The notes beneath the pieces were generated by a model that was not told where the DNA came from, did not search any database, and saw only the letters and a program-made list of their open reading frames with translations. Shown here in pieces: positions 11,501 through 59,600 of a stretch of 64,000 nucleotides of DNA. The DNA comes from Trichuris trichiura. Its lineage: Eukaryota; Nematoda; Enoplea; Trichinellida; Trichuridae. The translations under genes and the position numbers were made by a program. The stretch covers positions 806,001 through 870,000 of the forward strand of contig JBAJFE010000042.1 in NCBI GenBank assembly GCA_037903355.1, written 5' to 3'. The first letter of the stretch is position 1. Each line of letters opens with the position of its first letter.

Positions 11501-13727
11501 AAGTATGCACTAAAAAAACTATTCTTGCACATCCGTAGTTTCGTCACTGTACGCTTTTTTGTAAGGGATGCACAAGTTCTCATGCAAAGGGGATGCTGTG
11601 GCTTTTGTAAACTCTGCACAGCGTCGTCCAGAAAATCTTGGGCTTTTCATCAAATTCTATTTATAGACAGTCCCTACCTACCGCTGCTGATTGCAGTAAG
11701 TGCTCCCCGCGTGAGCCGATACCGAAAATTGGCAACAGTGAGTCTACTGCACTTAAGCGTAAACCAAAGCCGAATTTAATTACTTCTGTGTAACTATATA
11801 ACGCACCCATAACACTGAAATAAACATATATTAATACTTCCATCTCATTTTGGATTTAGGCTTAGGCAGCGTAGACTCACTGCGGGTTGCGGTGGCTTCG
11901 TCGAAAGTTGTTTTGTAGACTGACGTTTTGTAAAATGTGTCGTAAAATGTTTCGCTGAATTTTTCATTTTACCAAAGGGTAGTTCGCCTAGACGAGCTGT
12001 AATCATGAATAGGCCAGAATCTTTAATGAGCGGAAATTTGGGTAGGCTGAAATGAAATCCCAACGAATGAAAGGATAAATGGCTGCCACATCATCCTTCA
12101 AGTGGTGAAGGCGGGAATAGACGATTCCCGAAAGCTTCACTAGGTAAACTTTCATCCACGAATATGGGGTATTGTCCGCATAGCTCACTGTTGAATTATC
12201 CAAGACATTTAATATTTTTGTTTTCAAGACCATTATTTTTCAAAACATCATGGAACTCATGTGAACTGCACCCTTACCCCCTGCTAAGCTATTTATAGAA
12301 CGCGTTGCAAAGTTAGGCTTTTGCACAGTAGACTATTCCGTCATTATAAACCATTTCAAAGTTTGGACGGAGTGCATTTTTGTTATGGCTGAATTGGGCG
12401 CTAGGATTTATTTCTCCAATGTTTGAAGTGGGTGGAAGCTTTACTGCATTAAAAGAGTTTGCTATGACTTATAGTATGAAAGTTGTGGTTCGGTTCAGTA
12501 GCAGAGAAGAAAAAAATACTCTATAAGAGGTAATTCGCATAAACTATAAGTACCGCGTGTACGGCGTACAAGGTGCTGGTAAAATTCGAGACCGATTTTA
12601 GGCATTTATCTCATCTCAGACTAGACAGAAGATGCACGTTCAACCCAAGTGAAAGTCAACACCCAAAAAGTAATAGAATAAACGTGCATATTGTGAATGG
12701 GGTTACTTTGCATGAATTGCCGCTGCTGCAAGTGGGGCAGCACGAACTGAAGAGCGTTTTTTACTTCCATCAGGACAAGTCCGCTTTCAAGCAAAGCATT
12801 AACTGATTGCTACTTGTTGGTAATATCTAATTCTCAAGATAAGTTTCTGAATGAACTTGACGCGTGCCATAATAAGAGTAGTAACGGTATCAACAGTGCT
12901 TGAGACTGATAGCCATGGCATACGAGATTTAAAACTTATGATTCGCGTTATTGCTTATATGAGTTTTTGAATTTTCAGCTCCTTATCAAAACATTTGCAA
13001 CTGAATTTCGAGGAGATGACTTTCCTGCAGCGCAAAATTTTTACTCTGTAATCCCTGCTTTAGTACGTTTGCACTTGGTTTTGTTTGCGTCTCTGATACT
13101 TTGGCGATGAATTTTTGCAGACACTTAATTTTGCTAACCACTGCCTTGTATACAAAGAAAGTGTTCAGCATTACTACGAAAATGGTTTGTCGTTTACTGA
13201 TGACGGATTTGCAGTTGGTGCGAAAATTTTAGCGGGAAAAGCAATTTGGCTAAATACTTTCTCTTTAGGAGTAGCTTTCTTGTTGAATATTTTGGGTCAG
13301 TTTGATCAATTCACTTCACTCAGATGGTTCACTTCTGTTTCTTCCAAGATATCCGGTGACAAAGTGAGTTGGAGCATTATTTTTGCCTTGTCAAATTCTG
13401 CATGTGATCATTGCAGCAGTCGTTAATGAAAGAGCTGCTCGGTACTGCTGATAAAACGTTGCAGCAAACTGTCTCATTTCGAATTAGACAGAAAGAGGAG
13501 TTTGAACAAGTTAGTAGTTGTTTCGTATTATTCGTGTCATACTTGAGCCTTTGATCATTTAAGGAGCTCGTCAAGGTATCTGACGCTTTGGCTTCGTCGC
13601 GTATGTTCTTCCACGCGGATATGACATACGAACTAGTTCCTTCGAACTCACTCAACTTGTACTTACTGCCATTTTCATTTACATCTCTACTTGTGCTATT
13701 TGCAGGAAGTTTACTGAAGATACTTGA
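5600..13727 (+). CDS. WASHC4: WASH complex subunit 4 (SWIP), multi-exon
   Basis: SWIP is a scaffold of the WASH complex, which activates Arp2/3 actin assembly on endosomes for cargo sorting. Blocks align in order with animal SWIP: DLLRFVRRCDAAIHRLI (6318 on), LVSLDMAIQMHGSLKDDWRI (6515 on), FGHLYFRRIDKKLVR (7024 on), LSTVASYDWQSYAEMRHLSK (about 10485) and DLISILRQFQTFVDAYAYNL (about 10600). Then come NALGYLRLIRSAGL (11295 on), GLSFTDDGFAVG (13180 on), ILGQFDQFTSLRWF and ASSRMFFHADMT (13588 on). I end it with a short intron (13659-13705) and SLNLKFTEDT plus TGA. The first exon is unresolved: the earliest segment I can tie in starts after the acceptor at 5599, and the start codon must lie just upstream, close to the TSR1 stop. 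Two longer introns lie around 8045-9300 and 11750-12975. Confidence 0.88.
8045..9300. other. Long WASHC4 intron, no gene seen
   Basis: No exon matching SWIP and no other recognisable coding segment was found here. Short open frames on both strands have no family likeness and lack good splice context. I treat the stretch as intron, but a poorly conserved SWIP exon could be hidden in it. Confidence 0.5.
11750..12975. other. Long WASHC4 intron, no gene seen
   Basis: This lies between the segment following the LGYLRLIRSAG block and the exon at about 12979 (LIKTFATEFRGDDFPAAQNFY). I recognise no coding match or repeat in it. It may hold divergent SWIP exons that cannot be seen by eye. Confidence 0.45.
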
Positions 13728-27121: not shown

Positions 27122-27620
27122 ATCTGACGTGAAACCACCACCCCGTTACAGCAGAAGCAATGTCTTCAAGGATATTCTTAAGAATGCGGCAAGTTATACC
27201 TGTTAAACCGGAAACAATTCAGTTAGTAACCTGAATATACTGCTTAGAAAATTGCTGTTATTAAGAAATAGCTAAATCCAAAACAAAGGAGTGAAAAGAC
27301 GGACTAATGTGTAATCTTTCAGTCGCAGACTTCATTCTCTGCCAACAGTTTTTACCTAGAATTAAACCGAGATAAAATCTTGTCTGTGTTCTATTTTGTT
27401 CATGTTTTATTCTAAGAAGTTAATTAGTCAGAAATTATTAAAGTGTAAACGTAACTTCGTTGAAACCAGAAGCATAGTTAAAATCCTAAAGAAATTACTT
27501 AATCAGACTAATTTTGAAGATGTGATGTTTTAGTACGGGACTGTATGTTTTCATATTTAAATGTCTTTATTACGGTTGCAGTGTCCCGTTGATGTGCCCA
27601 ATGAACGCTAAAACTTCCTC

Positions 27621-27658
27621 CGGAGCTTTCGGGTCTTTTCGCGACCCGTCTTCAGCGG
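27621..27658 (-). ncRNA. Hammerhead-ribozyme-like motif, copy A
   Basis: On the minus strand it reads CCG, CTGAAGA, C, stem GGGTC, loop GCGAAAA, stem GACCC, GAAA, GCTC, CGG. The CUGANGA and GAAA boxes, stem II and the closing stem I are intact. AGCU before the C is self-complementary, and CUC would be the cleavage triplet. It is the left half of the palindrome at 27544-27797. Confidence 0.6.
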
Positions 27659-27680
27659 TGTGATACTACACATAATCTGA

Positions 27681-27719
27681 CCGCTGAAGACGGGTCGCGA
27701 AAAGACCCGAAAACTCCGG
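27681..27719 (+). ncRNA. Hammerhead-ribozyme-like motif, copy B
   Basis: It reads CCG, CTGAAGA, C, GGGTC, GCGAAAA, GACCC, GAAA, ACTC, CGG. It is nearly identical to copy A but has AACU instead of AGCU before the putative cleavage site, so the self-complementary stem III is lost here. A conserved hairpin (27750-27767) and AATAAA (27768-27773) follow. Confidence 0.6.
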
Positions 27720-28425
27720 AGGAAGTTTTTGCGTTTATTGGGCACATCAACGGGACACTGCAACCGTAATAAAGACGTTTAAATATGAAATCATACTAAT
27801 TTTGTCCAAATTTTGCTTCAATCATACTAGTAAAAGCAAATTTAAATAAACCTGGCATTCATCTCAGGTTCTGGCTGGCTTTTTAAATTTTGTATCGAAC
27901 ATAATAAAACCTAAAATTTAACATAAAATATTTATTAAAAGACATGGTTTTTCATGTATGAGGTTACGACCCCGTTTTTAAAACAACACAATGATAAAAA
28001 CAGTGGAACTTTTGGGAGTCCTGCAATTCCATTTTCAGAGTATAACAAGAAAGGACACTACATGAAAACAGACTCACTGCAGCAACGTCAAACATGAAAA
28101 CCAGTATCTTTGGCTGGAGAGGCTAATTAGTCAATTTTAAAAAAAGACAGCATGTGCTGCTTCGAAAAGCTTGCAAAACTTTGAAAACAAACTAAGTCAG
28201 TAACTTGTCAAAAGTGGTTGATTAAAAAAATGTTGCGATGTTGAAAACCAAAAATGTGCTTTATGAAAATCCCTTTTATTTACATCCTCCGCTCCTGCGT
28301 GAGAAATAAATGAGAATGTCCAAGAAAACTTCTTTGGGTTGACTTTTCTTTGTCTTTGCTCTTGAAATGTATTTTAAAGCATTTAATTTCTTTCTCGTGC
28401 ACTTTATTCATATGTCAATTTAAGA

Positions 28426-28464
28426 CCGCTGATGACGGGTCGCGTTTCGACCCGAAAGCTACGG
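28426..28464 (+). ncRNA. Hammerhead-ribozyme-like motif, copy C (best preserved)
   Basis: It reads CCG, CTGATGA, C, stem GGGTC, loop GCGTTTC, stem GACCC, GAAA, GCTA, CGG. In hammerhead terms CCG/CGG is stem I, CUGAUGA and GAAA are the catalytic core, GGGUC/GACCC is stem II and CUA is the NUH cleavage triplet. Stem III is only A15.1-U16.1 within the palindrome AGCU, which could form fully only between two molecules (double hammerhead). The single C between CUGAUGA and stem II is not part of the standard core. Confidence 0.68.
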
Positions 28465-28489
28465 AGAATTTAGTAATAAAAGTTTTTCA

Positions 28490-28507
28490 ACGGGACTCAA
28501 AATCCGT
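28490..28507 (+). repeat. Conserved tail hairpin ACGG-N10-CCGT downstream of copy C
   Basis: ACGG and CCGT can pair around GACTCAAAAT. The same block follows copy B (27750-27767), a diverged form follows copy E (38386-38401), and another occurs alone at 63029-63046. Each is followed by an A-rich AATAAA-like stretch, suggesting a 3' end of a short retroelement. Confidence 0.6.
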
Positions 28508-31500
28508 ATAAAAAAAAGAAGCAACCCAATGATTCTTCAACTAATATTATTCAGTTTTGTTTGCACAGTTCTTGTTGGGATGTGATCCTGCTCTTCTTCA
28601 ATAATCTGATTCTTTGTTATGGAATTTTTGTAATCATTGCAGGCACTGAGAGATTCATATCCCGTTGTTTAACTGATGTTACAAGTAGTTTCTACTGCAT
28701 TAGATGGACAGTAAGACCGCTTGAATTTTCTTTACCGCTTTAATAAGGCAGTCAGAAACGAGCTAGTGATAGGATAAAGCAGTAGAGCGAATTCTGCTCT
28801 TCAGAAAGTGCATTATATAAAGGATTAAATAAAGGTTCATTAAAAATGAACATCGAAGTTTGGAAATAACAAAAACAGCAACTACTTTTGTCCCAACTAG
28901 ACACACACGCATATCAAATTAGGGCTGTGTAGGTTGTCATAAGTTGTTCGCTGTTATCCGCGGTAAGCCTTGGAACCTTTGCCCTGTGGACGCGGGTATC
29001 CACCCGCATGTTAACAGGTGCCTTCAACAAGAGATGTAGATCTATCAACAAAACAAATACTTCTACAAGGTTTCTCACCTCAAGGTATGCACTGACTGAA
29101 AATTAAAATCCCTTGCTGCGATGAAAGAAATTTAAAAAACTTAAGTTTTAACAGCAAACATTTAATTTGCTAACCCAACTTAAAGCAACAGTTTGCTTCT
29201 TTCTTTAATTGCTAAAGGTATTCAAAGTTTCAGTTGTTGCATATTATTTCCTCATCGGCATGAACTCTGCATGAAATTCAATCTTTTGGCTGTTTGACGG
29301 CGCATGTTGTGACATAGAACTTTCGCTCATAAGAATTTTCATGTAAGCTTAAATCCATGAGTTATTGATGCGGGCTTTCAAACGTGTCTATTTTTTCCTT
29401 GTTGAAAACTTGTCTCTCCTGTTGAAATTAATAATGCCCTCAATAATACACTAAGCTGGCCAGACGGCGAACGACAGATGAATCAAGGCTAGAAGCTTAG
29501 ACATTTATCTTGACCATGCGAAACAGCCAATACACTGCTGCTACCTCTTCAGCCGTGTAAATCTGGCTGTTTTTCTCGGGTTCTCTTACCTTCTGATTCG
29601 CTCTTTTAAGTAACAAACCCTTAAAAATAACCGAAATACGTATGTTCGAAATAATAAACCTTTTATAAACGAGTGATAAATTCATCTTTACAGCTGGTTC
29701 TTTAAGTGCGATTTTACCTGCTATGTATCGAAAGTACTTTCCTGAACTTTATTTAGTTTCGTATGCAAAATGTACTATGCGATGGGTACGCCAGACATAC
29801 TCCGCAGCTGCAAACAAAGGGGAAGTAAAATATAAGATCGAATGGCTTTTTGACGGAAGACAACTTGTTCAGTTCTTCGCAGAATGCTTTTCATCATTTT
29901 GAGTCCTCTGCTTGCTACTGGATAAGCTATTACATTGCAGCAGGCCCTGAAAATTAATTGTCCAGCTAGAATTCTGGAAACTGCGCCATGCATAAGGCGC
30001 TTGGAGTGATCAAACTGCCTACTTATTTTTGATGAGCAAAGATAAGAAGGCGGGATTACGTCGCCAACTGAATGAAAGCTGTGATGAAAATGATTCTATG
30101 TTTTGAAAACTCGGTGTCACCTAGCTTTAGATCGTTACAATTATTGCACACTGCAATTTCGCGCCAAGAGTTCCTGCTTATGCGCAATTAGTTTAGAACT
30201 AATTAGGTATTAGCTCCTTATCCAACATTCACCTATAATGGGACGGCTCACCAGAGTTCAGTCATGTTGTGCATGATTGGAGAAGCCCTATGAATTCTGA
30301 CTGATTGATTGATTGATTTGGCATGAATTTCGCTATCTGAATTGATTTTAATCAACATGCCCTGCTAAATGATAAGCAGACATGACCTTTTTAGCCCAAA
30401 CTATCCGTACGTTCCGCTGAGAATCTGGCATAGCTTCAGGAAGTGTACACCTGAAGGAGGCTAACATCTGAAATGAAGTAATAAGACTTTGGTTCACCTG
30501 ACATGTCACTGCTAAAATTTCCACCATTTCTTTATGTAACGCGTTCTGCCTCGTAATTGCCAAATTACTACGCCAATCAGAACCAGTCTTTCAGTCATCA
30601 TTGCTTTAAGGAAGACGAATTGCATCTTCGCATCTGCCAGTTGTGAAGAACTGAGACGAATAAATTGGCCCGTCAGTGTGATAAATACTGCATTGTATCA
30701 CAATTTCCTTAATGCGTTTGGTCATCATTTGCTCGTTTTTAATCGCTACAGTCAGGTGGAAATCAATTGAACTTGACGTGCCTGGAAAGCAGTGCTTAAA
30801 TACAAAGCACTTATCCGAAAAATCTGAGTGCTTTATTGAAGAAAGAAGTCTCAAAACTCATTTTAAAAGTGTTTCTAGACATGGTTCGCACGGAAAGACG
30901 AGTGATAATGCGAAACTTTATTTTCTTCCGTTCAAGGGAACTAACTGTAGCATTTGATGTGATTTGCGTCACGCTATTGCTAGTGCTGTTAAAATAAGAA
31001 ATTTGACTGCTAGAAATGATAGAGGAACAATAACGCAAACACATTTTGTATATCTCTAAAAATGTTCTCATAATGTGTGAAGTGACTACTATAATCCTGT
31101 TTTCTGAGAAACGATGTGCGAACAAAGCGCATACATGTGACATAGTAATTCTTTCTTTGCAAATATATCGATTAATAGCAAAAACCACCGTTCCAGTTTC
31201 GAGTTAAAAGTAATCAAGCATATTTCCTCTTTCATTTCCGTTTGCCAGGAAAGCTAAAAACATTCGACTTTAGTAATTTACCTTTTTAATAGGGGTAGGC
31301 AAAAAAATTGGTGCGGCTACATGTTCGAATGAAAATAATGGGAGAAGCCCTTAGTTAACGTCTTCCATTTGTTAACTGAGTCGAACTCCTTTCCAGGATC
31401 AGCACTCATTGGAAGTTACTTTGTACTTTGAGGGTATTAGGCAAAATGTTAGACAACTATGCTTAACCGAACGATGATTTACATTGCTCACTTCCACATT

Positions 31501-34888: not shown

Positions 34889-35261
34889 GTTCCGTAAACT
34901 AAAAAGAATGAAGATCTACGCATCTGTCACACGGCATCCTAGCTATAACTTCACTAATTGAAACTTTATTTTCTAATGATCAAATAGACACGACGAATGT
35001 GGCACAGGAGTGGTTTTCAAAAAATATCCAGTAGGAAAGCCGTGTCTACATCGCAGTTTATTTTCTGAGCAGATACACAGAGAAAGTTAACACTAAAAAC
35101 TTTAAAATGTTTCGATTTACTGGAGCATGCGCAGATTTGAATATCATAAAACTTTTAATGCGCTGAATTTAGTAACGGGTGCGTAAATTTTTATGATAGG
35201 TTTTATGTTTACAGTAGCAACCCGTTTTTAACGTATTTCTCACCACTTTCTAACAGTATTT

Positions 35262-35299
35262 CAGAGTTTTCAAGTCCGTTCTTGACACGTCATCAGCTG
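35262..35299 (-). ncRNA. Hammerhead-like motif, copy D'
   Basis: On the minus strand it reads CAG, CTGATGA, C, GTGTC, AAGAACG, GACTT, GAAA, ACTCTG. The core boxes are intact, but stem II is weakened to GTC/GAC plus wobble and mismatch, and stem I is decayed. Confidence 0.4.
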
Positions 35300-35398: not shown

Positions 35399-35469
35399 AA
35401 TAAACCATGCTAGAACTGGGTAGAAATTGGTTAAAGACAGATCGTTACTGTAAACATAAAACTTATCAT

Positions 35470-38324
35470 GAAACTTTTTGAGAAACCGTTTTGAATATAG
35501 TGCATTGTTTATTTATGCCACAGTATGAACGGCTAACTGTATGACTGGCAATATCTACTAGTTACACATATCAGGTTATCCATGAATTGGACAATCTCAT
35601 TAGGTTGCTTCTTTTTTATGAATTGGACAATCTGAGGATAAACGATTGATAAACATCAGAAATGGTGGAAGTTTCACGACCTGCCTCACCCATTATCAGC
35701 ATCATATGGTAATGACTATGAGAAGGTAGTCATTAAAAAGCTGCAGGACATGATAGTTTGAAGTAAGAGCTGCTAACTCTAAGAAGTTAGTCACGTCTGA
35801 CACGTGGAAATTGAACTACGTGTTTTACATTGACGCTTGGGGTTGCTATTTTCAACATGAAAGGATCTGAACGAAGCGGTCTTGTTTCAACAGGTCCGTA
35901 AAAGTAGGCATTTTTGCGAGTTTACTGATTTCGCAAAGATCGTCGCAAGACCTCATCCAAAGTCATTTGATGTGGGTAGCCCGGACTGCAATTCTTCCTC
36001 TATTAATACTTTTGCAAGATTTACTTGGTAATTATTCTTACATGAACAAAGAATTGTATTCGCTTATATCTGTCTGTTTTGATTATACATTTGTGCTCAT
36101 ACAGATCCCTATCTTTCGCAAAAGAATTTTAAGAGTTTTGATGTTGCGAACTATTAGACACAGAAATTTTATTTAACTTTTTTGTAGTTCACTTCCAGCC
36201 ATCCATTCCTCTTAGCATGACTACAGCTGAAGCGGTTTTTAAAGGATTAAAAATCAGCGCCAACTGCGTGGTAAATTTTCGTAGGTAACATAAGCACGAG
36301 TCAGTAAACCCTACGAAAAAAATGTTGGTCTTTATCTTACATAAAGGGTTTTCAGGTGCTCCATAGTTAGTAAAAGTCGCAGCAGTCTTCTTTGAGCTTC
36401 TGCTTTTCAAAACTGTTTGAGGCTCATATATACGGTCTCTTAAATACACAGGAAACCTGTTCAACCCGGCCAATGAACTCCTAGCTATTTCAATAGATCA
36501 TACAGGCGTGGAACGCGTTCATGGAAGTAAGAAAAGAATTAGCAAAAGTTTCGGATCAGAGCAGGAAAACTACCAGACTGAAGCTCCAATGTGAGTGTAG
36601 CTTGAGCTCTAATACTTGGCAGTTCTTTTGATCAAGCGGGTCTACGGGGAGCCGCTTCCAAACCGTTTTCGCTCCAAATTTTTTTGGCTTCAGTTCAAGT
36701 TAAGAACATATTTAGACATTTTCAGAAAAATAACAGCATAAAATGCTATTGACATTCGCCTTGAACGCTTCACATTTTGTCCTGGTGACGATAAGGCCTG
36801 CAGTCTTGAAAGTTCTACTTTTTCTACTCATCATTTCTTTTTTCTAGGAAAAAATAGTTTCTCGATAAATTTATCAGTACGTTAAATGGACGTATCGTAA
36901 CCTTTGTCATGAAAACCCATCCTGTATTCGTGATTTAATAATAACGTCAATAGTGTTGCAGAACTTGCTTTTTTATAAGTCAGTCCTGCGGAAACATCCG
37001 TTATTATTGAAATATTTTTACTGCTTTCGATACCTTCCATTCCACAGTGCGGAGAATGTTCAGTGCTGCGGAACCTAGACAATTCCTTATTAATTTTAAT
37101 ACCATGAAGGCAACACGCTAACAAAAACTTCCATATAACCTTCCATTTTCAATGTCATAATAGTTTCTTGAACTGTTTACATTCAACTCTAATTGGGGTA
37201 GTAAGCAAGTTAAGAGCAATCAGAACAGTCGAGTTTGACGAATCGAACGTGAATGGTTGCCGGGCTATTCACGCTGCGTTGACACTGGCAGGAGAATATA
37301 GTTATTGTAAGCTACGCCAAAAGTTAGTAGTTTAATAAATAAATGGGTTGTTTCCTTTAAAAAACGGAAAAGTTATCGAGCTTTTGAAATTCACAGTTGC
37401 CAGCTACTTCTAGTGCCAAGGTTAGTCCCAAATCCGACTATAGTTCTTGACATTATGCTTTTGAGCAAAACGTCTAATCTTGCCTTAGTAATGACGGATA
37501 TTAATTTTCTCACGACGTTTAAAAACAGGAAGGTGCCCAAACTACACACAACAGAAATGCTTTCGTGAAATTTGTGACAGGACTAGGAAAGTCGCTCCCT
37601 TCGTCGCGCTTACCATACGTAATAAGTTTTAACACGGTGGCTGAGAATCTTTGGATAGAAACCGTGGGAAATCTGGAAACCTTTGGGTTGCGCTGCATAC
37701 TGAGCGCTTAACTGCGGTTAGTTTTGCTTTAGCCAACTCCAAAGGCCAGCGGATCCTGATATAAAAGCGCTCAAGGTCATAGTATTTTGAGTTACTTTGA
37801 GCTCTTCTGCCGTTGGTGTACATGTTGACAAGCACGCGGCCAAACGGCCCTTGCGACATCTGGAGAGGATAGTGACCTCTGAAGGGGCGTTGGCGCGAAA
37901 AAGGTTGAGAAAATTGGAAAACTGTGTTTTAGCCAGACGCGCTAAGAAAATAATTTGATGGAAGTTAGTAATTGTTTTATAAATGAAACATGATTAAAAG
38001 AGTCTAACGTTAGTCATTACTTCTGATATTCTTTAATCAGCAATTGTAGCTGAATTAAAAATCAATCATTTTAAATAAAATAAATGAGTTTTAGTAAGTA
38101 AATGCATATTATACAGTGAAAAAGAAAACAAACTATGAATATGTCAACAGAATGATTTGTTTTCGACTGGATGTTTCATTACTTTCGAAAGAATTTCATT
38201 ATTCTATCATCAGAACCTTTATTGACTGGCTTCATCACAAGGGATAGATACATTATGATATGTGCTGATCACATCGTTTTTTTAAAGGACCGTAGGCTCT
38301 CATTAGCCCTGTTTGTTATTTTAA
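35470..38324. other. Gene-poor region, no supported gene
   Basis: Only short unrecognised open frames. A 16-base direct repeat (ATGAATTGGACAATCT) occurs twice near 35582-35634. Confidence 0.5.
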
Positions 38325-38365: not shown

Positions 38366-38468
38366 TATCTTTTTCTCCCTGGTTGACCGGACCCAGTCCG
38401 TAAATAAAGAAACAAAACTTTTAATTCGTCGTTTTATGCTGACAACTCATGATAGGTGCTTCTTTGCT

Positions 38469-38552
38469 GCTTAAAAAACTTTGGTTAATCATCAAATAGA
38501 AATGCTGTAATAACAGCATTTTTATTTGATGATTAGCCAAAGTTTTCTAAGC
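38469..38552. repeat. Near-perfect 39-bp hairpin, 6-nt loop
   Basis: The left arm GCTTAAAAAACTTTGG... to AATGCTG (38469-38507) pairs with CAGCATT... to TAAGC (38514-38552) with three mismatches around TAATAA. The size resembles a microRNA precursor or the tip of a foldback transposon. Nothing here decides between them. Confidence 0.7.
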
Positions 38553-41500
38553 AATGAGGAAGAGATGAAGTAGCATTAGTGCTGGTTTAGTCATTCCAGT
38601 CGTTCTCTTTTTTCCGTTTGAAGGCAAGCCCTTTACTTCAACAATAAGCGCGTTTACAGTTAATAATACAGCTTTCGAAACCAGGCGTGTCGCGTCTTAA
38701 ACTTCTGTCATAGACATAGTAATTAGCATGGACAGACGACGAATTTTTATGTTCTTCAAAGGTTTGTTCACGAGCAGAAGCACACGCCGAAGACGGAGCA
38801 CTGCTGATGGTGAAAACTAGTACAAGTGTGAACACTTAAAAGCAGCTTACCACTGCGCAAAGAGCTGAAAGGTTATGCGTTACGCAATTACTTTAAAAGA
38901 AACGTTCTGTTTGCGAAGCTGAAACGTGAATGTAGTGCTGGCGTAAACTGAAACGTTAAAATAATTTATTTTAGATTTACATATTAAATTGGCATCTCTT
39001 AGCTGTTTGCATTAACCGGACAAGACAACCGAAGTCATAGTTACATTAATGCACTATAGAACCGTTATAAAAAACTGGTTTTCAAAATCGGCATCTTCTG
39101 TTGCGTGAGGTGCGGATTGAGTCTAAATCTTGAACTTTGAAGAACACTAGACATCGTTCGCTTTGAAAAGTTCGAACGACGCGGCTATCGCATCAAACTT
39201 AAAAAACGATAATTAAACAAGAAAGTAAAAAAGCAAGTTCGAACTAACCAAATATTTACGCCAAATGGACCTCAGGTTTTAGAATGTTTTATCGCTATAG
39301 CAAAGAGTTTCGTTGCATGCTAACAATAATCCAGCACAGAAAGGAAAAGCATTATGATTTTCAAGGCCAATCGAATTCCTCTAAGGCGCCTGTAAATTTG
39401 TTCGAACATATTGATCCCTCTGGTTAACATTCGCGTTTCTGCACGTCCAACACAACTGGATACAAGATTCAAAAATAAGAGAGAGAGAGTAAAGAAACCA
39501 ATATTTATTGGCCTTCCAGTTATGCTTCTGGAACGAACTATTAGTTTTCCTACCATTCGTTGAAATACAATTAATATTACGTTAAATCCAGATCAAATAC
39601 GCTTATTCACGCTGGGGACAGCACGATCACTATGTCAGCTCCTTAATGCATCGCAATAGCAAAAACTTTCTTCATCGTTTGGTGTTCTTTCAATAGGATT
39701 TAACATGTGCAGGGCATACTGAAGTTTGAGCTCAAACATACAGAAATTGTAGTGCTTTTTAAGTGCCATATGCAACCTATAATTTTTCACGAAGCGAGCC
39801 GCTTCATTAACTTATAAAATCACATTACCCTTGGGACTAGTATGTTCTCATCTTCAATATAAAAGCTCGAAGAACTTCTTGTAGCAACGGACTCCACGAT
39901 GTGCCATTGGTTTTTATTCACCTCGAAAGATAACAATTATCATTACACCTGTTCCGAACGCTTATGCCTTATCAAGCTGAACGCGAGCAGATAAAGTGCA
40001 CTGACATTTCTGTTTACGCGAAAGGTTCAGAAAAGCAGAAACGTGCTTATTCTACATCATTTCTTGCATTAGCTTGCTAAACTAGTAAATCTTCTGCAAA
40101 AGAAATTGTAACTTGAGCTGAATCCCTAAACGCACCTTGATTTCGTAACGGAAACTCTAAAGTTCAAGGGAATGACGGCAATGAAACTCAACCATTTTCT
40201 CCAATATAATTAAGGTAAAAGAAAGCTGTGAGTTCCGCCTAACTTAGTTAGCTACTAACGCTCTGGGGAAGGCCTTCGACCTGGGACTAAGGAAAATTAG
40301 GGATAACTGAGTTTTGATGAACTTGTCGAGAATAATCTTATGCTAGAAATGACAGAGGTGAAAATAAAGCGAAGCTATGTGCTCTACTTCGTCTCGTTAT
40401 ATGGCCAAAGATCAAATCTGCCCTCTTGCTTATCATATCGATTAGAAATGCTCTGAAGGTCTTGTTCGTTCCCTATTTGTCCACCAAAACAATGTGAGAT
40501 GCAGGTGCGCAAGGAGCTCTTACCGTTTGCTGATCGACTGTCCTTCAGAAAAGAAGCCAGTAATTTGGGCTTCTTTCTAGCTTGACATTTAGCGCTCAAA
40601 GACAATTGTACTTCATGATAAACTCTTTTTAAGTGAAAGAACTGATAGATCCATGACTTCTCACTCTGAAGGAGAGTCGACTGGTCTGTTTTGACATAGC
40701 TGAATGCCGCTGCCACCACGGACTGCCAACTATCAGTCAATTGAAGAAGCTGGCCGATGTATTTTGATAGCTGACGTAGCAGCCGTACACTAGAGTGGCG
40801 CTTCTCATAACTGCCATAATAGAGATGGGCTGATTACGGTCTCCTGAGGCTTGGCTTCCAAGACTTACGCAAAACGATTCGATCTTTTCCATTATTAGCG
40901 CGGTCTATGGATGGGGCGACCAATAGTTCACTCTAGGATGGCCTCACAGAAATGCCGTTACAAAACAGCCGAAAGCACTAGCTTCCCTGAAAGTCTCAGC
41001 ACTTTCAGCGCTGCACTCAGGTAACTATGTGAGCAATCCTTTCATTTTTGGCGTGTGAACCGTTTGCATTTTGTCAGAACGTTGCTTCGGCATGCTATTA
41101 TGAAAAGAAGTATTTTCATAGTTTTTTAGCTTTTCCATCTTGGAAAAAAGTTTGCTTAGGCACCAAGAATAATAAGAGTATGACTAAAAGTTGAAAATTC
41201 TTGAAATATTTCCTTCCTGCAAAGGATCATTCGCTGACGTTAGCAAACAAACATGTGCTTAAAGATGATTTCTCAGGTAAATTGTAAGTTTTTGTAATTT
41301 TTTGATCTTTTGCAATGTGCATGCTGTGGCATTAAGTTAATATTGAAACGAAAGATTTGACACAGGCTAGTATGGAATGGCTATGTGCATTGCCGAATTA
41401 AACAACGCTGCTTCGAGCTCAAATTAGCGATTTATTTTGCTGCCCTCAGTTTTGTTGCTGATGCAAGAGTAAATGAATTTACATTTTCTCTTCGCTTTCT

Positions 41501-44500: not shown

Positions 44501-45274
44501 GAGAAATCAAACAGCAAACATGCTCACGGAAGCTACTTGAAACATGAAGGTGCCAATGATTTGAGCAAACAGATTCTCTTGAAGGTTTCTTGCACTATAT
44601 AATTGATGTCCAGACAGGCATGAAGTTGCGGGAGGCAGACTTCCCACTTCTCCTCCTTCGAATCGAAATTTCCGTATGGAGCGATCAGCTTCTGCTCGCT
44701 GATTCCGGTTTTCGAAGGCTTATTCAACATTGTAAAGTTCAGCTCGTCACTATCTGTAATAGGGTGTCTCCTGACGATGCCACCAAGTCAGACTCGTTCT
44801 TTGTGGTAAGTTGGCTTGTCAGTTCGTAAAGAATATGGTTTCAGAAAGAAGTTACTGGTACAGTGCGAGTTATACATACCTCTTTACCGTTCTGGTTGAC
44901 TATTCCACATTCACTTGACGCAGCAGAACGTTTTGTGCCCGTTTGAAGATTAGCTTTTAAAGAAGCCAAACCTTTATCATTGCAAAAATACAAGTTTTGT
45001 GCTTGTGAGAAATCGTCGCAAACTGCTGCATTTTAGGAAAACTTTTCATGAACCCATTTCTGTTTCTATCGATGTTTCTGGTTGCGTCATAGGAAATGTA
45101 TATGCACGTAATTTTCATCTTTTATTCATAACTACTGTCCGTTGTTCAGGCTTCCTGAGAAATCATTAATGTACTCATTCAAGAAATAAAAAAATGGCTT
45201 GAATCTCATTGAATTTTTTTCAGTTATTATTATAACTTTTTCCTTGATAGATTCTGAGAATTTTTATTTTTTAG
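38553..45274. other. Gene-poor region upstream of the K2P gene
   Basis: I find no recognisable gene. The minus-strand frames at 40384-40740 (118 codons) and 43629-44730 are the longest, and I cannot match them to a family. The first exon of the K2P gene should lie somewhere in this stretch. A diverged duplicated segment occurs near 42660-42735 and 44825-44900. Confidence 0.45.
44459..44491. repeat. Perfect 15-bp hairpin
   Basis: AATCAAGTAAAAGAT, then GCC, then ATCTTTTACTTGATT. Function unknown. Confidence 0.6.
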
Positions 45275-46754
45275 TTCTGAAGGTTTGAGCTTCTACTTAA
45301 ACAATGAACAAGATCGGCCTGAAGAAACAGAGGCATGCGGAGACCATCTGATTCCAAACAACTACCGATCATTACCAATTAACGACACATTTAAGTCTCA
45401 GGTGCCTTCTTTGTTCAGTGATTCTGATAGCAAAAACTGGAGGAAGGTAAGTTCTTCAACTATTCGTCTTGCTCATAATTTAATGTTGTTTAAGGAATTG
45501 TATATTATCCTTCCACACTTTGGACTCGTATTTCTGTCTCTAATTTACACGGTCATTGGAGCAGGAGTTTTTTATTACATTGAGTATCCTAACGAGTCGA
45601 TTCTAAAACGAAAGAGCTTGGATCGAATAAGCCAACTACATGGGGTTTTTACTGATGACCTGTGGCAGCTGTTTCTTAACCAGTCTATCAGTTCCAAAGG
45701 ACACTGGGACCAGCTGGTGGATGCGTACTTTGATCAGTTGATGGAAACCATGCATGAAGCGTTCTCTGATAATTATATATCAGTTGACGAAATACGGAAC
45801 AATCGCACTGAAAATGTTTGGACATTTTCGTCCAGTTTCTTCTTCTCAATAACTCTTATCACTACCATTGGTAAGCTGTTACAAAATGGAATGGGCCATA
45901 TATCAGTAAGCGTATGAAATGCATGTAAAGACCGGCGCATGCTTATTGTTCATTAGAGCAATGCTCTTAACGGACACGTAATGATCTGCTGATACCACAT
46001 AACATCTGAAATTCAAGGAGCAGGTGCCAGGAATGCGAATAAAAATGTTACTATCAATAACGTAGGATCACAGGAGCGGAGTGTTTCCAACATGAAAGCT
46101 TATACAGTTACTTCTCTGACCTATTTAAGTATTGTAGAATACTTAATAAAAGAGAGCAGACAGAGAGGTCCCCGGAACAGAACTGGTTTATTTCAGAAAA
46201 CTTACTGCGTAGTAGTCTGGAAGCTTTCGCTTATGTGTATCTGCTATGCATGTCCCCGAAAGCGAATGGTGTTGTGCCTTTTTATTATTTTACTGTCCTT
46301 TGAAATGGTATTTGTTTTTGAATGCGCGCAAGGTTTACTAACCATGTAATCAAGTCATTCAAAACAAAGAACAAACTTTTTAAAAACTGTTGCAAGAGAT
46401 CACACCTTTTTATTGATCCTAGAATTGCTTACAGAATGCTTCACCGTGCATGGTGACCAAAATCCTGCAATCATTATTTGAACGATATATTCCAGCGCGT
46501 AAGAAAAGTTGGATGACTAAAATGACTTTGTAACGTGTCATGAGTTGATACCTCCAATGACGGTTGAAATTAATAATAATAATAATAATGGTTGTTCCTC
46601 TGGTTCACGGGTTTGGCCTGTTGCATGTATTTCTAAGTTAACTTCAAAATGCCCTACCAACAAACGGATGAGCAAATTGTTAGAGAAATTACTGAACAAT
46701 TCAATACCGTACGTTTCAAAACTGCTCGTGTTCCGTCGTCAGCAGTGTTGGGGC

Positions 46755-46789
<35 letters not shown>

Positions 46790-49700
46790 TTGGAGAGAAA
46801 GAACGGCTGTCTCAGAAGTAAAAGGCTCTGGACATTCAGTTTTTTCTCTCAAGCGTTTCTGACAAAAGGTGCACACTATGTTTCTATAATAAAAGCATAA
46901 ACGTTTGTTACATAGCACTCCATTTTCCGAACTAAGTATCACTTTAAAATGGCTAGGTGTGGGTTGAATAACACTGCGAGAATTTAAAATCAGCGCTATT
47001 TCTTCAGGAGGTTGCGAGTAACAGAAAAGTGAAAAAGTGTATTCCAAATGCTAAAACCTGTGAATTTTCAGGGAAGTTTTTCCATTGGGACAATCTGAAA
47101 ACAGGATGTTTTCTATCAGACTGTTTCATGGTTTGTTAGATCTTCTACGGCTTTTCCCGTTGTTGTTACATCTTTTGTTACGCATTCAACTTAGAAGCAT
47201 TCAAAATAGCATCACTGCAGTAGGTACTTCCATGAAGGCCATTAAATTTTCCAGAATACTTTTTTATATAACTGAATTGCTACAATGTTGATCTCAGAAT
47301 GCTTCTGAACCTGTAGCATTCAGTAATAGAGCATACCTTTTCATCCAGAAAAATATTTACAGGTGTACCGTTTGTTAGACACTCCACCGTGAAAGATTTC
47401 CCTGAAGCTTTCAGAATCCATTTTTTCCATCTTCATGGGATAGATGTGACTCGCAGTTTAAGTTTATTGCTGTGGAAAATTTCCTGTTATAACGTTCAAT
47501 AAATTTACTTCCAGAGTTTTCCGGTCCAGTCTTGACCCGTCATCAGCAATTAGTTGGAAAAGGATTTAGTTAAGTTCCGCTGAGGGAACTTCAATCCTCA
47601 TTGAGAAGACTATATAAAATTTTGAGAGGATGAAATTAGAATTTTTGGAGAGAGCTCTTTTAAATAGTAACTAACTAGAATTTCATCAGGATCCAAGGGC
47701 TAGTTTCGTATTTCGTCAACGAACGTTCTGCTATTTTTAACGAAGGAAGGCACCTTGCCCGTTAAGGATTTGATGAGCTTCTTTAAGCATCGACTTAATT
47801 CATTTGTGGTACTGCTTATTGTAGATACTATTGGCCGTAGTGGGATGCCTGGCTTGTGCAACTTTAGAAAACCATAAAGCTCAGAAAATTTGTAATTCGA
47901 TGCGAACTTAAGGTGCGCTGCCAATTTGGTAATTTATAAATCATACTGGCTCACAAATATTCATGATTGTCTGTTGTTCTGTTTTCCAATACAACGTAAT
48001 ATTTTTTTCAGGTTATGGGCATCTTGTTCCAAAAACACTGGACGGACGAGTGGCGTGCCTTATATTTGCTGTATTTGGTATACCATTAATTTTAGTTACA
48101 ATAGCAGACCTGGGAAAGTTTCTTTCCTTGCTCACCGGGAAAACTTACGTGGCCTTGTCAGGAACATGCAAAACAATTTGTAGAAGAACATGCATTTTGT
48201 TTCCACTTTGCGCAAAACGCTCAAGTTGCGAAGGGTCCGCCAGAGGTCATGAGAGCACGTCGGTTAGTGAAACATATCCAGGAAACATATCGGAAAACGA
48301 GTTCTTAAACCCTGATGAAAAAACAGTGTCCGTATTTTTCGTCATGGCAATCTGGATTGGTTACACTGCTCTCGGTGCCCTTCTCTTACAGCTCTGGGAG
48401 CCGTGGACTTTCTTTGATTCTTTCTACTACTGTTTCATTACTGTTACAACGATTGGTAAGTTACCGTGTCGTGAAAGAAACTCCTCTTCTGACCATTGTA
48501 ATGCATTGCGTAGTAATACAAGACGTACTGCGGTTGGTCTCACCGTGTTACAGACAAATGGCTTTGGCATTGTATAACGCGTCGATTAGTTTATAAATTG
48601 TTTCCTCTTTACTGCTTAGGAATTTTGTCGCAATAATTATAAGAACAAGCGAGGTTCAAGTAGCTTGAGCGATGCGTTCCGCAAAAGTTGTGTTGTTTGA
48701 AATAATATTAAGGTAATTTTAAAATAGAACGTGTAGTAGTAAAAATCAGAGAAGTCGTTAAATATAGGATATCTCAGAAAAATTAAGAATTTGTTTTTTT
48801 AAAGAGTTGGACTTAAGTTGCAACATTGCCACTACGTCTGCGCTGCAGGCAGAAACAGTGGCTTCCAGAAAACTTTGCTCAATAAAATGATTTCACGGGC
48901 TGAACATTTCATACTTAAACTATGCAAGTTGCAGTATTCCATTTATTCCAATAGTAGAATTGAATAGTCTTGCTCTGAAAATTCCATGTCCACATATTCC
49001 CAGTGACACTGGGTTTTTAGTAGGAAATCGTCGCCCATCTTTTGTTGGAAATTCTTTTGCAGGCAGATCCCTGTATATGCGGTTTCAGTTACATGTGATT
49101 TCTCTCTCCTCGCCCTGACAGTTTAGTATTACATAATTCGCAGCTTATGTAAGGTGTAAAACCGAATCCTCGAATTTCTGCTTTTGCGAATAGAGCTAAT
49201 ATACAAAACAGTCTTTTTATTGATAGAGTTTATGGAGTCATCATGAGTTTCCACTCTCTTTTTTGGGGCACCGCCTGGACTCTTTGTTCAAACAGGCAAG
49301 GTTGATAGCACCGTGCAATTTCTCATCGCTACAGGGCGTCGGGCTAATGGCGTCACATGTTTCTTTATCGATAATTCACAGAACCGCTACCACACACTGA
49401 ACATTCAGTGAATAGCTGCGCAATATTGTGAATCCTGTTATGAGAAAGCTGTGCAATAGTGTCTCAAAATCTGCGTACGGACTGATCCCTGGAGCCTCCA
49501 TGGTTCTGAGTAAAAATTAAATATTTTCATGACTTCACGTGCATATTCCGTCAGAGGAGGTGTTGGGAATCTACTTCTCTGAATCAGAAACATAGAATTA
49601 CATTTTAACATTGCAGGTTACCCGTTTTTTTGAAAACTTAAAAAGACTGCATTCTAACTAGTCAGTTACATACAGTCGATCATTCGACTTACCATGTCAC

Positions 49701-50290
49701 GTTGTCAAGGTGTATGGATCACCGCAATTCACTTTCATTTAGGTTTTGGAGATATTGTACCACTAAACAAGGCATTTCTTTGGGCAACAGTTCTGTACTT
49801 CGTCCTCGGCTTGGTAGTGACCACGATGTGCGTTGACCTTGTCGGGTCACAGTATATACAGAAGTTTCACTACTTTGGACGCAACGTCAAGCGTGTCACC
49901 GAAACTGCGTTGGCAAATTGGAACGGCCGTGTTGTTCGCCTTGGTGATGTTTTTCACTACGTTGCCTTTCTGCAAAAGTCCTTTGGACTAGGCCCAGAGC
50001 AGATGGACCGCATCGCGGCTCTTCCGACAGACTATTTGATTGAATGCATGATGCACGGTCGGCAACCAAATCTCAATCTTTTCAGTGGACGACCATACAT
50101 TCCTAACGACATTTATTACATTAAATGGATCGAGCAACCTCGAACGGCTAGCTATACTAGCGATAAGGTATTGGCCAGTGTAGAAAGCTTGGAGGTGACA
50201 TCAAGGTGCAGCACGAAAAGAACTCCGAGGGAGTGGTATTACCACATGGCATTCGAGCACATGAATGCTGCTGCAGAATCATCTGCCTAG
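45275..50290 (+). CDS. Two-pore-domain (K2P/TWK) potassium channel, 5' exon missing
   Basis: This is a leak potassium channel of the plasma membrane, formed as a dimer with two pore loops per subunit. Exons are 45275-45870, 48012-48455 and 49743-50290, about 529 codons, each joined in phase inside the Gly codon of a pore signature. Order: TM1 (IILPHFGLVFLSLIYTVIG), a long extracellular cap of about 90 residues, pore 1 TTIG/YGH, TM2 (LIFAVFGIPLILVTIADLG), TM3 (VFFVMAIWIGYTALGALLL), pore 2 TVTTIG/FGDIVP and TM4 (FLWATVLYFVLGLVVTTMCV). YIQKFHYFGRNVKR follows and resembles nematode TWK channels. The first exon starts at an acceptor (AG at 45273-45274) with no suitable ATG, so the start lies upstream and was not found. 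Pore 1 has GYGH where GYGN is more common. Confidence 0.92.
46567..46590. repeat. TAA trinucleotide microsatellite
   Basis: A run of about six AAT/TAA units lies in K2P intron 1, just upstream of hammerhead-like copy F on the + strand. Confidence 0.8.
46707..46745 (-). ncRNA. Hammerhead-ribozyme-like motif, copy F
   Basis: On the minus strand it reads CTG, CTGACGA, C, stem GGAAC, loop ACGAGCA, stem GTTTT, GAAA, CGTA, CGG. Stem II pairs through two A-T, one C-G and two G-U. The palindrome before the cleavage site is ACGU instead of AGCU, a compensatory swap. It lies in K2P intron 1 between two TAA microsatellites. Confidence 0.6.
46757..46789. repeat. AAT trinucleotide microsatellite
   Basis: A run of about ten AAT units lies in K2P intron 1 directly beside copy F. 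Confidence 0.85.
47511..47549 (-). ncRNA. Hammerhead-like motif, copy G, next to a Penelope-like RT fragment
   Basis: On the minus strand CTGATGA, CGGGTC, AAGACTG, GACC, GGAAAACTC, TGG. The CUGAUGA box is intact. The stem is GGTC/GACC, with a possible outer C-G pair, and stem I is weak. It lies about 150 bases downstream, on the same strand, of the RT fragment ending at 47700. Confidence 0.48.
47700..47924 (-). pseudogene. Penelope-like element reverse transcriptase fragment
   Basis: The minus-strand frame contains ELYGFLKLHKPGIPLRPIVS followed by TNELSRCLKKLIKSLTGK and SFVKNSRTFVDEIRN. This is the N-terminal RT region of Penelope-like retroelements (YGLPKLHKP...PLRPIVS, then LAK.L.PL.GK...VKNS..F). 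The fragment is about 75 codons and lacks the catalytic YXDD region and the GIY-YIG endonuclease. It sits in K2P intron 1, ending less than 90 bases before exon 2. Penelope-like elements are known to carry hammerhead motifs in their terminal repeats, which makes the nearby copy G meaningful. Confidence 0.85.
48456..49742 (+). other. K2P intron 2, nothing else recognised
   Basis: Bounded by donor GTAAG at 48456 and acceptor TTTAG at 49742. No repeat or coding block recognised inside. Confidence 0.7.
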
Positions 50291-52634: not shown

Positions 52635-52673
52635 CCGCAAGTTTCAGGACCCTTCTTGTTCCGTCTTCAGCGG
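52635..52673 (-). ncRNA. Hammerhead-like motif, copy H
   Basis: On the minus strand it reads CCG, CTGAAGA, C, stem GGAAC, loop AAGAAGG, stem GTCCT, GAAA, CTTG, CGG. Stem I and both core boxes are intact; stem II has one mismatch. CTTG breaks the AGCU palindrome and the NUH rule, so cleavage is doubtful. Confidence 0.48.
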
Positions 52674-53449
52674 AAAAACGTAGAATGTCTTCTTGAAAAG
52701 ATGGGAACCGCTTAATTTTAAGGGCGGTAAAGTAGCACCTTCTGCGGCTAGTAAATTCAAAACTCTTAAGAATAAATCTGTACCAGAAGCTCATACATTC
52801 AGAGAGGAAACCGAACCTTTTTCCAAGCATCGAATAATTGTGAAACTGCGCGTCATTACAGAGATGATTTGTCATTCAGTTAGCCTTTGTAGCCCAGAGT
52901 TGATACGGAAAGAGATATGTCATATGAGTATGACTCCAGAAAAGAAGGACTTTCCAATGAACCTGACTGATACGACTATCAACAGCAGGGTTGAGGCTAA
53001 ACTTATGAAATTCAAGAAAGGCTACTAGTGAAAAATCACGTCGCAGGCTATTCCTGCTACACTGTCTTGCTGCTGTGGCAATATGCAAAATCGCAGAAAA
53101 GTTAGGTGTCACTGCAGTGTTCAAAAGCTTGATGTTCGAACTTGCGTCTGATCTTGAGGTCAGACAATATTAAAACTCAGTCGGAACAAAAAAATGTGAT
53201 CTAGAACCTTAACTGGGGTTGCAAGGCTAGGCACTTAATAGAAACAGGCCACACGATATTTCACAGATTAGTAATAGTTCATTAACAGGGGTTAACCATA
53301 AACCTGTAGAACCATTAATGTCGCCGATTGAAAATGGCTAGTTTTAAAATGCACAAGAAACAGAAAAGTATTTAAAGGGATAATGATGATTTTAAAGTTC
53401 GAAATTACAGATCCACTCGAAGTTAGTCCTAACTTTGGCGGTCCCGTGA
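52674..53449. other. Interval upstream of the PDZ gene
   Basis: A + strand frame of 111 codons runs to 53028 (basic, Lys/Ser-rich) without a family match, and no clear exon borders are seen. It may be part of the repeat that carries copy H. Confidence 0.3.
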
Positions 53450-55893: not shown

Positions 55894-57345
55894 ATGAGGG
55901 TAAGAATAAGGAACTCAATCTGAGTTAATTAAAAGAACTATTTTTCAGAATTTAGCCGTCTGTGCCCTGCTTGCCGCATGGTTCGCTTTGGCTGGAGCTA
56001 GAAACGCTCATGCTGACGAGAACTTAGTGAATGGCGGAGGAAGGCATTTCTTGAGATCTCCTGCGCCCTTGGATGATCTCCAAGCAGACAGCGCAATGGC
56101 ACCCACCGTGAAACTGAAATTAATGCCTGATCAAGAAAGAAATGAATTTGGCGCAGCAGATGCAAAAAATCAGAAGGAAATGAGCTACGAAGAGGCGAAA
56201 GCTATTGAAAGTAATATAATGGAAAAACTTAAAGCAGATAATGACGAAAGACCGATAAAGTTTTCACCTGCGCAACGTAAATTTTTGGATACTGTGCAGA
56301 ATACTATCAGCAGAAGAAACCAGGAAAAGGAAAAAGAGTTCGCAGATTCAAGACAGATGGGCTCATCAATTAGTGACTCGGAATTACGAATGCAGAATGA
56401 GGAGCACGTAGCTGATCCAAGATATGTGCCATATAGCGGCGGTTACAGGATGGTCAAGAAGGTTCAACCTGAAGCAGTAGCGCACAAATGGAAGCGCATT
56501 GAGGGTGGAAAGCCGAGCAAATTTCGTGTCTCCAATTTTGAATCTGATCATGTTGAACTACTACCTGACGGAGTACAAAGACGTCATTGGTATTCCCATT
56601 CTTTATACCCAACGAGAGAACAAGCTGCAGCAATTCCTGCATTAAAAGTTGGGGACTACATGGCCGATGCTAGTTCTTACCTAATGAAAAAGCCAGAATT
56701 CAATGGATGGTCAATGGGAGGCGATTCGTTACCATTTCTTTCCTCGAAAAGGGGTAGGAGAAAACAACGAAATATTATGAATAGTGGGATTCGTCATTCG
56801 GAAAGAAAGGTTTCTGCTGATCAACCAGCGTTAAGAGATCAAACTCAGCCTCTTTGGATAACGCTGGCTAAGGCAAGAAAGAATTGGGAAGTTCGCTTCA
56901 AACCTAGCAATAATGGATTTCAACCGTACCTTACTGTTAGGGAACAGAGAGTTCCTGGCGGCAAGCCAATCGTCAGAGAAGGATTCTTGACGAATAATAC
57001 TTTCAGAATTGTACCAAGCGTTCAAAGTAGTTCGCCTGCTGTACAAGCTGACACGCAAAATAGTGAGCCCACTAATAATACCTTCAGTGAAAGTGTTCGG
57101 GTTCTCAACTTGACGAACATTGACGCGGGAAACATTCCCTCGCTTGAGCGGGTGCCTATGGAGTTTTTGAACAACGTGCTCAACATCACTAGGTTGGTGG
57201 TTATCTTTAGCGCACGTAACTGAAACAACGTGTTTTCAGCCTGATGTCAAACGACGAGTTCAAGCGAAAGAAATTCAAATGTTCTATTTCACTGGAGACG
57301 AAATTGACAATATGCGGTTACGTTTTGGAAAATAAGAACCGCTGA
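55894..57345 (+). CDS. Secreted protein of unknown family, three exons
   Basis: Exon 1 is only ATGAGG (55894-55899), exon 2 is 55949-57192 and exon 3 is 57240-57345, joined by introns of 49 and 47 bases with clean GT/AG ends. The joined start MRNLAVCALLAAWFALAGA is a classic signal peptide, with likely cleavage near AGA/RNAHA. The mature protein, roughly 430 residues, is hydrophilic. It has an acidic/Lys-rich N-terminal third (YEEAKAIESNIMEKLKADND), a Trp/Tyr-rich middle (RRHWYSHSLYPTREQAAAIP, EFNGWSMGGDSLPF), a basic patch (SSKRGRRKQRN) and possible N-glycosylation sites (NNTF, NLT, NIT). It ends SNDEFKRKKFKCSISLETK... and TGA. I know no domain matching it. The basic patch could be a prohormone-convertase-type cleavage site (inference). 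Confidence 0.8.
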
Positions 57346-58676: not shown

Positions 58677-59600
58677 ATATTATCATCGCGCGCGGGTGTT
58701 GTTCGGTCATGCGTCTGGGCTGGTGAACGAGAGATAGGATACGCAGAAGAGTTATGTTCGGACAGCAAACCGTTAAACGGCAGCGTTGCACAAGGTTCCG
58801 CTCCAGAGACGCGACCTATAGGTCCTGACGGCAGCCCATACAGGAGGCTCAGAGGGCGGTGCAAAAATGGTGCCTTGACGCCACAGCGCCGTTCTCAAAA
58901 CCGCTGTCATCAGGCACGTTAGTTTTCGTGAAGCTCGAAGTACAGAATAAAATTCAGCCTTATCTTAGGCAATAGTCGCTCATCCAGAGCGGGCGATCCT
59001 TCTACCCTGATTCAAAATTGCGAAGTTAATGAAATGTGAGTAACGAAAAGAAAATGAAAGAAGGTGGATATGTTCACCTAAAATTTGGAAGTTTCTAGGC
59101 TCTATTAAAACTACGCAGGTGGGTTTCCACATTGAAAGTTCTGAAAATTGTATTTTGAAGAAACAGAAACCTCATCTTTTTCAGATTGTTCAAATTTTAA
59201 AAGGTTACACATAAGCAGTAACAAGCCAAAAATGGAGAATGAGTAAGCCTACGCAATCTAACGACAGTGCTAACTTTAACGATAAAACGGAAACTTACGC
59301 ATGAAACTGAAGTAATGGCGGCATACGGTAACTCGCGCCAACAAGAAAGCACATTGCGCAATTCACAGCCAGCTTGCTACTCACTGCGCTAGCCTCTCAC
59401 GTGCCAAAGACACATAAGCGTGTGACAGAGAGATTTCGCTTACCGGGAAGTAATGAAACTACTAAGTATTTTCATCACTTCTTTATACGGTATGTTTTCT
59501 AGCCCGTTGATGGGTTCCGGAATTAAACTGAAGCAAATGCCCTACCAACGGATGGGTGAGCAATTATTAAGAAAAAATACAGAACAAACACTTAACAGTT
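58677..59600. other. GC-rich tail then unassigned sequence
   Basis: To about 58920 the sequence stays unusually GC-rich, with no protein match on either strand; it ends abruptly into AT-rich DNA. No primer-binding-site match can be argued. The rest to 59600 shows nothing recognisable apart from the repeat segment adjoining copy I. Confidence 0.35.

Follow-up and report, generated by a model that had tools for sequence, protein, structure and literature searches.

The motif at positions 28426–28464 (+) of the 64,000-nucleotide stretch of Trichuris DNA analysed here (the window) is very probably a minimal type I hammerhead ribozyme located in the 5′ leader (pLTR) of a Trichuris Penelope-like retrotransposon (PLE), with an activity that is predicted from sequence. 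Hammerheads in PLEs are already published, and the Trichuris family adds a member to this known kind; a search of titles and abstract openings, with most subscription journals outside its scope, found no paper on hammerheads or PLEs of Trichuris. The Trichuris copies form several lineages with compensated changes and include insertions with readable ends, which makes it possible to ask from sequence whether cleaved RNA serves as a template.

Copies of the motif in the window and the genome

The copy at 28426–28464 (copy C) reads CCG-CTGATGA-C-GGGTC-GCGTTTC-GACCC-GAAA-GCTA-CGG, in which stem I (CCG/CGG) encloses the CTGATGA segment, an extra C (position N9.1), stem II (GGGTC/GACCC) with its loop GCGTTTC, the GAAA segment and the palindrome AGCT, and in which cleavage is predicted after CTA, at 28461 (+). 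Direct reading bears out the order of parts given in a preliminary description of this DNA, which had the parts themselves right and overlooked the extra C between CTGATGA and the 5-bp stem. The core is intact, and a family covariance model (R1) built from 44 copies, all from outside the window, scores it at 52.1 bits (E 1.1e-10, second best in the window, the E-values of the tool being rough). Copy C is a solo copy whose 3′ leader (28465–28525, +), compared by eye with loci L004 and L066, consists of a spacer and the conserved AACGGGAC...CCGTA element; homology stops near the expected ATG, at an end that is approximate.

The same model yields 12 window matches at E≤1, of which 8 fall below 0.01, and this count fits the earlier estimate of copy C plus about ten further copies. 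The rigid pattern CTGATGA-N18-GAAA occurs four times in the window against a shuffle mean of 0.04, and the core accompanied by at least four of the five stem II pairs occurs nine times against a mean of 0.1 and a largest value of 2 in 200 dinucleotide shuffles. Throughout the genome (72.7 Mb, 62 contigs), three disjoint exact patterns found 1547, 383 and 487 copies, more than 2400 together, and a further exact pattern found 1526; reversed-pattern controls gave 0 in each of six genome searches. The 383 copies are those of a lineage with the palindrome ACGU. At one place in the genome (G000 C1:2085396–2086507), four copies of a group ending in CGC, the last three 475 nt apart on one strand, look like a short tandem array.

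Eight family copies in the window, copy C and seven others, have an intact core CTGANGA...GAAA (CUGANGA in the RNA): 27620–27658 (−), 27681–27719 (+), 28426–28464 (+), 35261–35299 (−), 46707–46745 (−), 47511–47549 (−), 52635–52673 (−), and 59601–59639 (−). Several of these have decayed outside the core, and the palindrome is broken in the copies that begin at 27681, 35261, 47511, and 52635. A divergent copy, 59601–59639 (45.7 bits), has TCG/CGA as stem I and GGGAC/GTCCC as stem II, both compensated changes, and keeps AGCT. Together with a weak match at 59704–59742 (+, E 0.013) it may be the remnant of an old head-to-head pair, and a 53-nt stretch near it (59535–59587) recurs at 46647–46699, adjoining the copy at 46707–46745. 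The latter, found with the family model, belongs to the second lineage, with the palindrome ACGT. The copy at 52635–52673, likewise found with the family model, is decayed and has a G at position 17; near this inverted copy, two weak stretches within 52819–53270 (+) resemble the C-terminal part of a PLE open reading frame (ORF; E 0.007 and 0.015). Two other copies are also decayed: that at 35261–35299 (E 0.1) lies within a larger inverted repeat (arms 35185–35248 and 35414–35477), with a partner remnant near 35360 (+), and a weak one lies at 12102–12140 (+, E 0.0064).

Within the window, the family copy at 47511–47549 adjoins a remnant of a PLE reverse transcriptase (47558–47933, −; tblastn E 1.8e-33), which has 63% and 65% identity to residues 325–427 and 428–450 of the ORF of locus L062 and stops 8 nt short of the hammerhead end at 47549. 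The remainder of the ORF was not found by tblastn around this remnant.

Covariation, core positions, and predicted cleavage

The structure-based alignment proposed in the preliminary description supports stems I and II by covariation, both in 52 distinct aligned copies and in the CGC-ending group, represented by 71 distinct strings. The 52 copies were found by their core, and the invariance of the core among them is due to that selection; five core matches (L055:263, window positions 8554 and 13197, L063:2639, and L083:211) were left out as non-members or frame-shifted. In this alignment the proposed helices pair in 92.5% of cells, compared with 15–52% for slid versions, and 19 cells are changed on both sides, compared with 3.6 in shuffles, none of 500 shuffles being as high. 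The number of pairs changed on both sides (5) was reached by 47 of 500 shuffles and is a weak measure. Variants of the outer pair of stem I include C-G, G-C, U-G, and U-A, and those of the stem II pair in columns 15/26 include U-A, A-U, C-G, and G-U. Among the 71 strings, stem II pairs in 321 of 355 cells, far above the mean of 239 in 1000 shuffles (sd 7, largest 261).

Within a single copy, stem III is no more than a palindrome able to pair between two copies. Most copies counted carry AGCU and 383 carry ACGU, a both-sided change at pair 15.2–16.2, so that covariation weakly supports a putative stem III formed between copies; few independent lineages stand behind this change.

Position 7 varies in a way that a hammerhead permits, being T in 30, A in 29, C in 10, and G in 2 of the 71 strings, and the family keeps an NUH cleavage triplet, with G at position 17 in 6 of 1547 exact-pattern copies and in 3 of the 71 strings. 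An extra nucleotide lies between A9 and stem II in all 52 aligned copies (45 C, 7 T) and is C in 62, T in 6, and A in 3 of the strings. Natural hammerheads with an extra base at this place exist, as in CChMVd. The RNA of the family is predicted to cleave itself after position 17. The covariation of stems I and II, the compensated change of the palindrome from AGCU to ACGU, the scarcity of G17 and, as described below, the direct association of the motif with PLE ORFs all uphold the class first suggested for it: a minimal hammerhead of type I, as in PLEs, whose stem III is palindromic and almost missing.

Two other parts of that suggestion fared less well. The Rfam hammerhead type I model had been named as a check, and the Rfam hammerhead models gave no match at the gathering score or at E≤10 in the window, including a rescan of 27600–28500, and none in locus L065. 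A genome search with RF00163 (Hammerhead_1), in which 73 of 12,095 candidates were scored, reached at best 26.7 bits against a cut-off of 34, with a candidate that is by sight another sequence outside the family of copy C. The RF00163 model is taken to expect a real stem III and serves as a practical test rather than a definition; the Trichuris family has in common with it the core nucleotides and the order of helices. A further suggestion was that the motif would fold well as a dimer and not otherwise. By nearest-neighbour energy, two monomers (2 × −14.7, or −29.4 kcal/mol) are preferred to the double hammerhead of copy C (−21.3 kcal/mol), and in the predicted monomer fold the extra C pairs with G12 and closes the core. 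Energy models ignore non-standard core pairs, and the dimer energy is therefore weak evidence.

The Penelope-like element and the ends of its copies

A search of the genome for the GIY-YIG domain gave 71 matches, and in all 20 loci listed among them the motif lies downstream on the same strand, mostly 600–800 nt and once about 200 nt from the start of the domain. A narrower expression of the motif finds it in 18 of these 20 loci, missing L054 and L055 for a one-base change in GAAA. At the larger PLE loci the motif lies no more than about 400 nt past the ORF in six of six; the matches at PLE loci include low-scoring ones with up to seven mismatches, the copy at L067 having five, and one L067 copy appears twice (2789, 2790). 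All four ORFs scanned contain both RVT_1 and GIY-YIG, the pairing of reverse transcriptase and endonuclease by which PLEs are recognised, and relatives of the ORF proteins include Trichuris, lepidopteran, sea-urchin, and amphioxus proteins. No PLE relatives were found in IMG/VR or GTDB contigs. The motif with and without the extra nucleotide occurs in 6, 9, and 2 stretches of IMG/VR, roughly the chance level reckoned by hand, and nothing is therefore drawn from these counts.

The motif belongs to a leader with the following order: a 5′ boundary, about 9–21 nt, the hammerhead (38–39 nt), a spacer, AACGGGA...CCGTAATAAA, and then, as read by eye, ATG and the opening codons of the ORF. The first codons after this ATG constitute the optional "tail" of the element. 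Locus L065 has the motif on either side of the ORF, in direct arrangement and 2.8 kb apart, and the copy is flanked by a 14-nt direct repeat, AGAGACTAGCAACT; with a second leader following the ORF, a single transcript could contain two hammerheads. When 25 leaders are folded to a consensus, ACGG pairs with a CCGT located past the ATG, with little covariation. By eye, in the leader of L047 and its relatives, a conserved pairing of ACGGGAN with NTCCCGT, which spans the start codon, looks as if it covaries (GGGAC/GTCCC, GGGAA/TTCCC, GGGAG/CTCCC); it may be a structure at which reverse transcription starts, and the consensus fold gave four pairs of it.

Motif copies (more than 2400 by exact pattern) far outnumber the 71 GIY-YIG matches, and their ends are those of PLE copies: pLTRs in direct or inverted arrangement, a tail that is present or absent, and target-site duplications. 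A survey of 3′ ends used a single leader as the query and scored 40 of 1442 candidates, giving 47 matches, the query itself included. Of the matches listed, 17 end at 289–308 and 30 at 329–343, with none between; these two end sites, about 35 nt apart, correspond to the absence and presence of the tail. Each of the 11 nearby −/+ pairs among these matches has, by eye, one end of each kind. In the stretches fetched separately, both outer ends could be read by eye in 12 pairs, a tally that leaves out L087, L091, and the extra piece of L103; 11 combine a long end with a short one, and the exception, L072, carries the tail in both arms. The outer flanks share at least 9 nt in 16 of 23 inverted pairs and at least 12 nt in 9 of 23 (one of each from L087), and 14 of the 23 share 9–18 nt at the distances expected for a duplication, the geometry being judged by eye. 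In the control of all 506 mismatched left/right pairings, 28 share at least 9 nt and one, L087 against itself, at least 12.

Many copies are arranged as head-to-head pairs within one target-site duplication, and the window contains an example. Its left arm (27517–27658, −) comprises leader, hammerhead (27620–27658), and tail, and its right arm (27681–27794, +) comprises the hammerhead at 27681–27719, with the broken palindrome AACT, and a leader that ends just past ATGAAA, without the tail. The arms are 94% complementary, and the pair is bounded by a 10-bp duplication, ACTAATTTTG, on the left (27507–27516) and again on the right (27795–27804). Matches of this segment (27610–27729) to miRNA-like Rfam models were rejected, as they merely report the long inverted repeat.

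The 5′ ends of the copies were sampled with a pattern downstream of the ribozyme in one subfamily (278 matches, the first 49 giving 40 stretches and 52 copies). Of these copies, 13 continue upstream for more than 150 nt or as far as the fetched stretch reaches. Among the 39 readable ends, 21 lie 9–21 nt before the hammerhead, 6 lie further upstream, 9 fall in the interval from 5 nt ahead of its start to offset 33 inside it, and 3 fall at offset 36 or beyond. Just 2 of the 39 are within 2 nt of the predicted cleavage site, which leaves cleaved RNA unsupported as the source of these ends; since the ends do not cluster there, the sample of copies read offers no indication that the usual template is cleaved RNA. 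On the simplest reading, the cluster at 9–21 nt would mark the 5′ end of the RNA, and the short copies would be cDNAs that run from the first tail site to that end.

These features suggest the following mechanism. Two copies of the hammerhead, in one tandem RNA or in two RNAs, would join through the AGCU or ACGU palindrome and so complete stem III, perhaps with help from the protein of the element, and the joined hammerheads would then cut after N-U-H. Most small genomic copies would arise when reverse transcription starts at the tail by the 5′ leader and runs to the 5′ end of the RNA, and in reaching that end it would carry the ribozyme along. Head-to-head copies within one target-site duplication would be single insertions.

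Alternative readings and known systems

A possible but doubtful alternative holds that the structure derives from a hammerhead and no longer cleaves, the extra pyrimidine pairing with G12 and the hairpin persisting as a signal for the PLE reverse transcriptase, for binding or packaging. It parts from the active-ribozyme reading over activity, not over descent, and the likelihoods we attach to the two need not sum to one. The predicted monomer fold, which closes the core, agrees with it, as do the presence of C or T as the extra nucleotide in 52 of 52 aligned copies and 68 of 71 strings, the copy 5′ ends, which leave the cleavage site unmarked, and, in a study of a lizard PLE, hammerhead mutants that leave insertion in vitro unaffected (PMC11167929). 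A mere hairpin, however, would have no need to avoid G at position 17 (6 of 1547) or to vary at position 7 as it does; A as the extra nucleotide could not pair with G12, and three of the 71 strings have it; and the lizard study describes cleavage that is assisted by protein (PMC11167929). We also offer, as a rather improbable extension of the active-ribozyme reading, that the extra pyrimidine after A9 would act as a lock: paired with G12, it would hold the ribozyme shut, and either a second copy or the PLE protein would release it, cleavage thereby being confined to the retrotransposition complex. Under the same reading, the leader and tail would in parallel be copied alone from the 5′ end of the RNA. 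If so, the ribozyme leaders of about 150 nt would be a self-contained non-autonomous element that outnumbers its parent.

The remaining readings concern the nature of the copies. Metazoan retrozymes are small non-autonomous repeats in tandem that have canonical type I hammerheads and spread by way of circular RNA, and they would account for the very many small copies in which a type I-like motif occurs; one proposal is that PLEs mobilise retrozymes (PMC7229834), and one place in the genome resembles a short array with 475-nt spacing. We nevertheless consider a retrozyme very unlikely here. No tandem array with the motif was found in the window, the fetched copies examined stand alone, in head-to-head pairs, or beside an ORF and have the ends and tails of PLEs, and there is no real stem III within one copy. 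Even less plausible is a DNA transposon (MITE) with terminal inverted repeats that contain a hairpin by accident. Many copies are indeed inverted pairs with target-site duplications, but the outer ends of the two arms usually differ by about 35 nt, the duplications vary from 9 to 18 nt, the inner ends lie at differing places, solo copies exist, and reverse transcriptase-endonuclease ORFs are flanked by the same leader; the asymmetry of the ends and the association with PLE ORFs are what disfavour this reading. To a chance likeness of unrelated short sequences we give almost no credence. The core motif is short, and one core match in the window, at 13197, is missed by the family model and looks accidental; the nine window matches against 0.1 in shuffles and the six reversed-pattern genome searches with 0 matches refute chance as the origin of the family.

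The preferred reading, a minimal hammerhead in a PLE leader, has clear precedents. Minimal hammerhead ribozymes of PLEs were reportedly treated by Cervera and De la Pena in 2014, and a 2017 paper by Lunse and colleagues is said to contain in its title the phrase "cleave RNA as dimers"; as this phrase appears in papers, the dimer idea is already in print. Published accounts describe PLE hammerheads that likewise have a type I core with helix III all but missing and likewise occur in the pLTR near the start of the ORF in many genomic copies (PMC11167929, PMC6155905, PMC7229834). Set against these same accounts, the Trichuris family has the palindrome AGCU, or ACGU in its second lineage, and, as a possible further difference, the extra nucleotide that separates A9 from stem II.

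The study of the lizard element states that its hammerhead cuts only with protein present, that it is dispensable for insertion in vitro, and that a 30–40 bp tail is tied to two reverse-transcription start sites (PMC11167929). In the lizard PLE the ORF starts at stem II and the cut falls 26 bp past the start codon, whereas in Trichuris the hammerhead and the predicted cut precede the ATG; the Trichuris copies end about 45 nt into the ORF, compared with a start site 111–118 bp in for the lizard (PMC11167929). Penelope elements of the rotifer Adineta vaga resemble those of Trichuris in a pLTR that includes the first codons, an optional tail (about 31 bp in Adineta vaga), adjacent inverted pLTRs, target-site duplications (8–10 bp in Adineta vaga), and palindromes at head-to-head junctions; the word ribozyme is absent from the main text of that study (PMC3846280). 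The satellite hammerheads of newt and axolotl (PMC6155905, PMC7229834) also have a weak stem III with a palindrome and a proposed action as dimers, but the axolotl motifs lie in tandem repeats of 330–350 bp, unlike the Trichuris copies examined.

Other features of the window lie apart from the family. A hairpin at 38459–38562, with 50-nt arms that are 86% complementary and sub-threshold miRNA-like Rfam matches, is perhaps a small inverted-repeat element. The protein of a host ORF at 55910–57223 has 98% identity to Trichuris trichiura, 71% to T. suis, and 49% to T. muris, so that this one protein assigns the genome to the human whipworm or a species very near it. Open frames within 45258–50290 (+) resemble, by eye, the exons of a two-pore potassium channel.
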